A stretch of DNA of 64,000 bases from Lacrimispora indolis DSM 755. GTDB lineage: Bacteria > Bacillota > Clostridia > Lachnospirales > Lachnospiraceae. Each line of letters starts with the position of its first letter. Positions within the stretch are counted from its first letter, which is position 1. The DNA lies in the NCBI RefSeq assembly GCF_000526995.1, contig NZ_AZUI01000001.1, forward strand, positions 2,418,001 through 2,482,000. The letters run 5' to 3'. The notes beneath the pieces were generated by a model. That model ran no database searches. It saw nothing but the letters and a program-made list of their open reading frames with translations, and was not told the DNA's origin. Below are positions 19,368 through 20,492 of this stretch, piece after piece. Both the position numbers and the translations under genes were made by a program.

Positions 19368-20053
19368 GCAGAATACTGATTGTAGAAGACGAAGAGAGCA
19401 TAGCAGAGCTGGAGAAAGACTATCTGGAGCTGAGCGGATTTGAGGTTGAGATCGAGAATGACGGTGGAGAAGGACTTCAAATGGCGCTCCATGAGGATTT
19501 TGATCTGTTGATTCTGGATCTGATGCTGCCTGGAGTGGATGGCTTTGAGATTTGCCGGAAGGTCAGGGAGGTAAAAAACACCCCCATTATTATGGTTTCT
19601 GCCAAGAAGGAAGATATCGATAAGATCCGGGGATTAGGCTTAGGTGCTGATGATTACATTACAAAGCCATTCAGCCCCAGTGAGATGGTGGCCCGGGTGA
19701 AGGCCCATCTGGCACGTTATGAAAGGCTGATCGGAAGCGGAGTTCCTGACAATGAAATCATTGAGATCCGGGGTCTTAAAATAGATAAAACAGCCAGGCG
19801 GGTATGGATCAACGGAGAGGAAAAGAACTTTACCACCAAGGAATTTGACCTTTTAACATTCCTTGCCCAGAATCCAAACCATGTATTTACCAAGGAAGAG
19901 CTGTTTAATAAAATATGGGATATGGAATCCATCGGGGATATTGCCACGGTTACCGTTCATATTAAGAAGATCAGGGAAAAAATTGAGTTTAATACGGCCA
20001 AGCCTCAGTATATTGAGACGATTTGGGGAGTTGGGTACCGGTTTAAGGTGTAA
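19364..20053 (+). CDS. OmpR-family response regulator
   Basis: 229 residues: receiver domain with the acidic pocket (VEDEES), phospho-Asp in LLILDLMLPGVDGFE, the Thr/Ser switch (IIMVSAKK) and Lys (YITKPFSP), followed by a winged-helix DNA-binding domain (FTTKEFDLLTFLAQNPNHVF; VTVHIKKIREKIE; TIWGVGYRF). Start ATG overlaps the kinase stop (ATGA), so the two are coupled and form one two-component system. Confidence 0.95.
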   Translation: MSRILIVEDEESIAELEKDYLELSGFEVEIENDGGEGLQMALHEDFDLLILDLMLPGVDGFEICRKVREVKNTPIIMVSAKKEDIDKIRGLGLGADDYITKPFSPSEMVARVKAHLARYERLIGSGVPDNEIIEIRGLKIDKTARRVWINGEEKNFTTKEFDLLTFLAQNPNHVFTKEELFNKIWDMESIGDIATVTVHIKKIREKIEFNTAKPQYIETIWGVGYRFKV

Positions 20054-20055
20054 AC

Positions 20056-20084
20056 TTGACAATACACCCAAAATGGTGTAATAT
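20056..20084 (+). promoter_or_regulatory. Promoter of a short transcript (candidate antitoxin RNA)
   Basis: TTGACA (20056-20061), 17-bp spacer, TAATAT (20079-20084); an alternative TATAAC lies 3 bp further on. No ORF follows before the terminator at 20129-20165, so a transcript of about 70-80 nt is expected. Confidence 0.6.
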
Positions 20085-20090
20085 AACAGT

Positions 20091-20165
20091 AGCTAAGAAA
20101 GTAGTTAAGACCATGTGGTCACAAAGAGAAATCCCGCGTATGCCAGTGCGCGGGATTTCATTTTA
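20091..20165 (+). ncRNA. Candidate antisense/antitoxin RNA ending in a terminator
   Basis: The expected RNA contains a 14-nt segment (20097-20110) identical to 20243-20256. It can therefore pair with the mRNA of the small hydrophobic protein at codons ~2-7. It also contains a small hairpin (GACC/GGTC) and ends in a 10-bp stem AAATCCCGCG / CGCGGGATTT (20129-20138 with 20149-20158) followed by a weak T-rich tail. The stem is symmetric, so it may also terminate the convergent toxin mRNA. Existence and boundaries are inferred. Confidence 0.5.
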
Positions 20166-20167
20166 GG

Positions 20168-20263
20168 TTAGCTGCCTTTATGTTTTCTGTCTAACCATTT
20201 GCATATGTAGTAGCCAGCTACACTTGCCGCGACAGAATGAATGAAAGTAGTTAAGAATTCCAT
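20168..20263 (-). CDS. Small hydrophobic protein, candidate type I toxin
   Basis: 31 residues beginning MEFLTTFIHSVAASVAG and ending KWLDRKHKGS: one membrane helix (about residues 4-21) with a positively charged C-terminus, the build of Firmicute type I (Fst/TxpA/holin-like) toxins. AAGGAGGTG lies immediately upstream of the ATG (20261-20263), among the strongest ribosome-binding sites in the window. A promoter with a perfect -10 (20306-20334) lies about 40 bp upstream. The convergent short transcript at 20091-20165 carries a segment complementary to its 5' coding region. It is too short for most gene callers. Function is inferred from architecture. Confidence 0.6.
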   Translation of the reverse strand: MEFLTTFIHSVAASVAGYYICKWLDRKHKGS

Positions 20264-20305
20264 GCAGACACCTCCTTCCTGCTGGAAAGAGTTGACAGCA
20301 TATCC

Positions 20306-20334
20306 ATTATATCGCAGTATAATAGGGGTGTCTA
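20306..20334 (-). promoter_or_regulatory. Promoter of the small hydrophobic protein
   Basis: Minus strand: TAGACA (complement of 20329-20334), 17-bp spacer, perfect TATAAT (complement of 20306-20311). The predicted 5' UTR is about 36 nt. Confidence 0.75.
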
Positions 20335-20492
20335 TGAAATTAACCAAGTGATTTTTTGACTTTTTCTCATGGTAGAATGGAACGTCCGTACTACCACAAA
20401 TGAAAGGGCAAGGTACGTAAACTCTCCGATAATGGCTATAAAAGTAGTTAAACAGGGAACAGCTTATGCAGTACCGATCTAAGGTATAAGAG

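Follow-up and report, generated by a model that had tools for sequence, protein, structure and literature searches.

In the DNA of Lacrimispora indolis DSM 755 analyzed here (64,000 nucleotides, referred to as the window), an interval of 439 nt (20054-20492) separates a response-regulator gene from a DUF6062 gene. An earlier note proposed that a type I toxin-antitoxin system lies in this interval, and its main elements were recovered (Table 1). The 31-codon ORF on the minus strand is present and its ATG is preceded by GGAAGGAGGTG. Both promoters described for the locus, one for the ORF and one facing it, were detected by consensus scan. The hairpin said to be common to the two transcripts is there as well, and the terminator-like signal attributed to it was listed on the plus strand only. 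The statement that no ORF follows the facing promoter needs a correction: a 36-codon ORF with a TTG start is listed at 20056-20166. We take it to be fortuitous, since it begins at the promoter itself.

Table 1. Features of the candidate toxin-antitoxin locus, with positions in the window
Feature	Position	Strand	Basis
Antitoxin RNA promoter, TTGACA-17-TAATAT	20056-20084	+	consensus scan, 10/12; response-regulator stop codon ends at 20053
Predicted antitoxin RNA, ~76 nt	20091-20166	+	both ends inferred; fold and duplex computed
Copy of second pairing block within antitoxin RNA	20097-20110	+	exact repeat
Copy of start-codon block (CCATG on +) within antitoxin RNA	20111-20115	+	gapped alignment
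Hairpin common to both transcripts, 14 pairs	20128-20159	.	T-run passes terminator scan on + only
Toxin ORF, 31 aa, MEFLTTFIHSVAASVAGYYICKWLDRKHKGS and stop	20168-20263	-	ORF list; 156 distinct homologous ORFs
Second pairing block in toxin mRNA, codons 3-7	20243-20256	-	exact repeat, alignment, genome-wide word search
First pairing block in toxin mRNA, CATGG across start codon	20260-20264	-	gapped alignment
mRNA leader stem CTCTTTCC-AGCA-GGAAGGAG over ribosome site, 5'-SL-like	20272-20291	-	minimum-energy fold
Alternative leader stem TGCTG / CAGCA	20300-20296 / 20284-20280	-	leader pairing
Toxin promoter, TAGACA-17-TATAAT	20306-20334	-	consensus scan, 11/12 matches
Third, 11-nt pairing-block copy, upstream of DUF6062 gene	20441-20451	+	sequence search of window
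Imperfect copy (16/21) of response-regulator 3' end, right border of insert	20469-20489	+	sequence comparison

The 14-nt identity reported between the putative antitoxin RNA and the toxin gene is exact, with GAAAGTAGTTAAGA at both places, and this word was found without mismatch nowhere else in the 6.38-Mb genome. It covers codons 3-7 of the toxin, not codons ~2-7 as first described. The copied region also extends further than had been noticed: after a skip of 3 toxin bases, CATGG at the start codon is repeated as well (20111-20115 = 20260-20264). Aligned with gaps against the complement of the RNA, the toxin start reads CATGG, then three bases without a counterpart in the RNA, then TCTTAACTACTTTC. 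As judged from this alignment, the antitoxin RNA carries in its 5' part a diverged copy of the toxin start region, start codon included, so that it would be able to pair with the toxin mRNA. The duplex predicted for the antitoxin 5' part and the toxin start of the window has an energy of -35.1 kcal/mol, compared with a mean of -16.3 (sd 3.0, best -28.3) for 500 shuffles, and the length of the window repeat is above chance, as 750 shuffles of downstream regions reached at most 11 nt. An 11-mer of the block is found at three positions in the window, where 0.04 would be expected by chance. The third copy, also mentioned in the earlier note, is present in the sequence; the locus of the closest relative, in Diplocloster, lacks it, and this copy was therefore not counted as part of the system.

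In the leader of the toxin mRNA, an 8-pair stem can form between CTCTTTCC and GGAAGGAG, the latter belonging to the ribosome site; this stem is also part of the predicted fold. Across the family described below, a masking helix with a score of at least 10 was found in 60% of the loci with their own leaders, in 41% with swapped leaders and in 23% with shuffled ones. The family-wide signal for a stem that masks the ribosome site is thus modestly above control. The signal for a leader hairpin as such (score of at least 9) was clearer, with 85% of family loci against 31% of shuffled sequences.

Homologs of the peptide and recurring start-region repeats were both found in other Lachnospiraceae, where the earlier note had suggested looking for them. 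A search with the peptide had matches in 17 of 61 genomes, at 26 places when its own is counted; in its own genome no second member was better than E 0.12. A profile of 18 members had matches in at least 123 of 397 Lachnospiraceae genomes (a lower bound, with at most 20 candidates scored per genome) and gave at least 488 confirmed stretches in a genome collection, 80 of which were kept. It also matched 45 viral contigs, 8 phage records and, at E<=1, 224 plasmid records. Most of the plasmids (196) were from Enterococcus, and Mediterraneibacter, Mogibacterium, Butyricicoccus and Waltera contributed one each. For the 30 plasmid rows among the matches listed, the gene table, which is incomplete, gave no annotated feature under the match. 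The lysine and tryptophan at positions 22 and 23 are invariant in all 65 aligned members, the window's own included, and in the window peptide this tryptophan stands between the hydrophobic helix and the charged C-terminus. An invariant leucine of the toxin is encoded by all six of its codons (149 of 150 rows); therefore, selection acts on the peptide.

Of 198 profile hits, 178 had a start codon that could be used; removal of exact duplicates left 156, of which 150 had full flanks and served for the analysis of the repeats. These 150 rows probably include decayed loci or mis-set starts, and none was taken out. Among the 179 homologous loci in total, 125 were found via the single pattern [YH][YF][IV][CR]KWLD, which leaves divergent members under-represented. 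In 112 of the 150 cognate loci, the toxin start and the region downstream of the same toxin have an exact word of 10 nt or more in common, whereas mismatched pairs and shuffles reached this length in 55/1800 and 15/750 cases, respectively. Control stretches from the middle of the toxin (+43 to +95) and from upstream of it (-80 to -28) did so in 2/150 each. The 33-nt match of L056, counted among the 112, is an artefact, since it is made with the leader of a second locus at a distance of 283 nt. The earlier note had named absence of the block from homologous loci as the result to set against its claim. Its presence in 112/150 speaks in favor of the claim, with 38/150 loci lacking an exact 10-nt repeat. 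When gaps were allowed, 130/150 loci scored above the 99th percentile of mismatched pairs, and in 98/150 both the start codon and the codon 3-8 block were matched; the window's own gapped score was equalled by 2 of 750 mismatched pairs. Predicted duplexes had a median of -47.5 kcal/mol for cognate loci, against a mean of -31.9 for mismatched ones.

The spacing of the repeats was mostly 142-161 or 167-185 nt. Clustering by a shared 9-mer divided the 112 repeats into 85 clusters. In 11 genomes or records that have more than one locus, a match of at least 10 nt was seen in 15/23 cognate and 1/26 non-cognate combinations, the latter being L056. The repeat therefore changes in sequence between loci yet stays matched within each, which supports base pairing. 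The other elements recur too: on the antisense strand, the best promoter score was at least 9 of 12 in 140/150 loci (15/150 when shuffled), and a terminator-like hairpin with a score of at least 14 was present in 132/150 loci (5/450 shuffles). Each of six loci (L034, L056, L060, L083, L127 and L158) contains two different members of the family as neighbors, separated by 0.3-1 kb, and their pairing blocks have little in common.

Seven annotated Fst loci served as controls. The pAD1-type one (L196) shares the layout of the window locus, with 14 nt repeated at +6, a block at the start codon and a skip of 2 nt. The other six have repeats of 17, 14, 28, 9, 16 and 6 nt, so that five of the seven are clearly positive (14-28 nt, near the start) and the remaining two have only 9 and 6 nt. 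The 28-nt repeat sits upstream of the annotated start, which was thus probably set too late. Repeats of 14, 14 and 13 nt were found in three unannotated plasmid members of the clostridial branch (L202-L204).

These observations can be compared with par loci, for which the features given are convergent promoters, a bidirectional terminator, a tryptophan signature, a 5' end and ribosome site that are masked, and direct repeats, which pair over the toxin translation start (PMC7472228). According to the same source, the repeats of Fst/Ldr loci show little conservation from one system to another and presumably determine specificity, and a U-turn loop motif does not occur in all par homologs. The par locus of pAD1 (Fst, RNA I / RNA II) resembles the window locus in its convergent promoters, common hairpin, repeats at the toxin start that are interrupted by a short skip, stem that masks the ribosome site, and short single-helix peptide (PMC7472228). 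A tryptophan before the charged tail is shared by the window peptide and Fst/Ldr toxins, whereas pAD1 Fst has a valine there (PMC7472228). The comparison of loci thus supports the view of the earlier note that this is a type I system whose RNA pairs with the 5' coding region of the toxin. Because of the convergent promoters, the common hairpin, the masking stem, the tryptophan between helix and tail and the start-region repeats, the locus is very probably a chromosomal par/Fst-like toxin-antitoxin system rather than one of the txpA/ratA type. Its architecture, pairing blocks and their covariation can be read directly from the sequences compared.

By curated cut-offs, the peptide itself is not an Fst/Ldr member. 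It matched no NCBIfam model at E<=1 and, in Pfam, no toxin model and no Fst/Ldr model, with only ATPase_gene1 and DUF2158 below threshold; a PDB profile search with the peptide found nothing. PF13955 gave no match at the window locus and one 11.6-bit match elsewhere in the genome. There was a weak match to PHROG 738 (E 9e-4), whose function is unknown. Among the members, 6/65 matched the Fst model NF033608 at E<=0.1, the best at 6.6e-6 with 25.8 bits (cut-off 26), and none of 12 genomes or records exceeded its cut-off; Pfam Ldr_toxin was touched by 3/18 members (best E 0.17). Alignment of the family profile with six Fst peptides by hhalign gave a probability of 94.9 and an E of 4.5e-8 in this single comparison, and in profile alignment the window peptide is 12% identical to FstpAD1. 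A P/D/S/T-xxx-G motif is described for the majority of Fst/Ldr toxins (PMC7472228). The window peptide has serine 13 residues before the tryptophan (W-13) and serine, not glycine, at W-9, that is, S-xxx-S in place of this motif. The pair at W-13/W-9 is S/S in 81 and S/G in 39 of 150 rows, and this is the spacing of the P-xxx-G motif in pAD1 Fst. The window peptide also differs from Fst/Ldr in its ICKWLDR signature and in scoring under the model cut-offs. The annotated Fst toxin WP_208854436.1 from a Megamonas funiformis plasmid carries FCKWLDS ahead of its tail, and a repeat of 17 nt spans the start codon; it is longer than the window peptide (35 aa), and its repeat spacing is 190 nt compared with 146 in the window. 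As judged by these sequence features, it bridges annotated Fst and the clostridial branch. Thus, the window peptide is probably a divergent relative inside the Fst/Ldr superfamily.

For a par/Fst-like system we infer transcription, a block of translation and toxicity as follows. A toxin mRNA of about 175 nt would start at approximately 20300, run leftwards and encode a 31-aa single-helix membrane peptide, with a leader capable of masking the ribosome site by folding. An RNA of ~76 nt would start behind the response-regulator gene, run in the opposite direction and end in the same hairpin. If pAD1 is a guide, first contact would take place between the complementary hairpins, and the RNA would pair with the toxin mRNA at CATGG and over the 14 nt of codons 3-7, with 3 toxin nucleotides bulging out. 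Pairing over the start region would block ribosome entry. Upon depletion of the RNA, the peptide would be made, insert into the membrane and stop growth. It is possible that the locus serves only its own persistence.

Comparison with 24 congeners indicates that the locus is a gained module, which splits the response-regulator/DUF6062 gene pair: none of the 24 has an intact copy at the site, 21 have no copy, one has a decayed copy and two (G001 and G011) have other inserts between the two genes. The gap between regulator and DUF6062 genes is 9-19 nt in 15/24 congeners and 70-120 nt in 6/24. In the decayed par module of the sister species (G002; 76% over 127 nt), the hairpin and part of the RNA region are kept, and the 5' half of the toxin has no match. 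In Diplocloster modestus, the module lies behind the same regulator and is 92-93% identical over 248-251 nt, whereas the regulator gene is 79% identical over 690 nt and the kinase gene 73% over the aligned 759 nt. The decayed copy, and a module identity between two genera that exceeds that of its neighbors, show gain and loss at one chromosomal site. Strong constraint could contribute to this identity. However, 7 of the 8 base differences between the two toxins fall on the first or second codon position, so that this pair shows no sign of purifying selection, and separate horizontal arrival at the same site in the window and Diplocloster seems more likely. The other insert, in G011, has immediately ahead of the DUF6062 start a copy of the 3' end of the response-regulator gene that matches at 17/21 positions; such border copies, in two different inserts at the same site, resemble a duplicated target or attachment site.

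The position directly behind a sensor-kinase/response-regulator pair, in both the window and Diplocloster, might also suggest that the peptide is a non-toxic, regulated small membrane protein, for example a modulator of the sensor kinase, and that the RNA is an ordinary antisense regulator. We consider this unlikely, given that none of the 24 congeners has an intact copy at the site and that homologs reside on small plasmids and in phage and viral collections. A par/Fst-like module could be wired into the host operon. The kinase and regulator genes run in the direction of the antitoxin RNA, so read-through would yield extra antitoxin, and the third block copy in the DUF6062 leader would act as a further antitoxin or sponge. 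If so, two-component signaling would set the toxin threshold; this extension appears quite unlikely.

In txpA/RatA of Bacillus subtilis, the toxin mRNA and the antitoxin RNA are convergent, as in the window, and pair via their overlapping 3' ends. Type I systems of this kind or of the kind known from Clostridium difficile would confine pairing to the overlapping 3' ends and make the 14-mer incidental, and the convergent genes with a common hairpin agree with them. The C. difficile toxins (CD2517.1, CD0956.2 and others; model NF047374) have, like the window peptide, a hydrophobic N-terminus, a charged tail and a convergent antisense RNA; they are 34-59 aa long with lysine-rich tails, compared with 31 aa in the window (PMC6563280, PMC7699646). 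They are described there as often prophage-borne and without homology to known type I toxins. At E<=0.1, 23/65 members touched NF047374 (best 2.4e-5), in a scan in which an unrelated transporter model reached 0.013. However, the bit scores shown for members were 12-18 against a cut-off of 60, and the window peptide had no match. The window locus differs from txpA/RatA in that start-region repeats are added and the predicted pairing is not confined to the 3' ends. These repeats recur with changing sequence in the 112 loci, and pairing by 3' ends alone was discarded in view of this covariation. A txpA/ratA- or C. difficile-like reading is thus very unlikely. Of the two organizations named in the earlier note, Fst/par agrees with the start-region repeats and txpA/ratA conflicts with the covariation. 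Both the Fst and the C. difficile models pick up members of the protein alignment, and these two families may be related.

Rfam families gave sub-threshold matches only and were dismissed. Leu_leader matched weakly over the hairpin (22.2 bits; E 0.03 and 0.18), as a leader-peptide attenuator might; but the gathering score is 50, the matches take in the terminator hairpin, and the covarying repeats would be left unexplained, which makes an attenuator extremely improbable. That a short ORF, accidental promoters and a repeated AT-rich word came together by chance has a negligible probability. Promoter-like sites are indeed common (7 found versus 4.4 expected in 3 kb), but this reading is already refuted by the comparative data, namely the 26 places in 17/61 genomes, the covariation of the repeats and the six-codon use at the invariant leucine.

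Fst-like sequences were predicted earlier in C. bolteae and C. asparagiforme (Fozo 2010, cited in PMC6563280), and par-like loci are described as ubiquitous in Firmicutes, with experimental members from enterococci, streptococci, staphylococci, lactobacilli and E. coli (PMC7472228). The string KWLDR was not found in the literature searched, nor was a description of a clostridial Fst-like branch found in titles and abstracts among the matches listed. On the basis of sequence comparison, we file the par/Fst-like locus as a member of a new, mostly unannotated, divergent branch, present in many gut Clostridia, of a kind of addiction system that is known from enterococci. This large Lachnospiraceae/Clostridia branch falls just under the curated models and is thus easily missed. 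As the pairing blocks differ between loci and stay matched within them, it may represent a natural set of insulated antisense switches.

Four further unannotated members (L184, L185, L186 and L188) are located on plasmids of 4.5-23 kb from gut and oral Clostridia, and the first two have replication or mobilization genes close by. In congener G001, contig 9 contains three tandem toxin-bearing units (L007, L019 and L024), 1087 bp apart, with tandem repeats showing no mismatch over 808-1895 bases of these loci.
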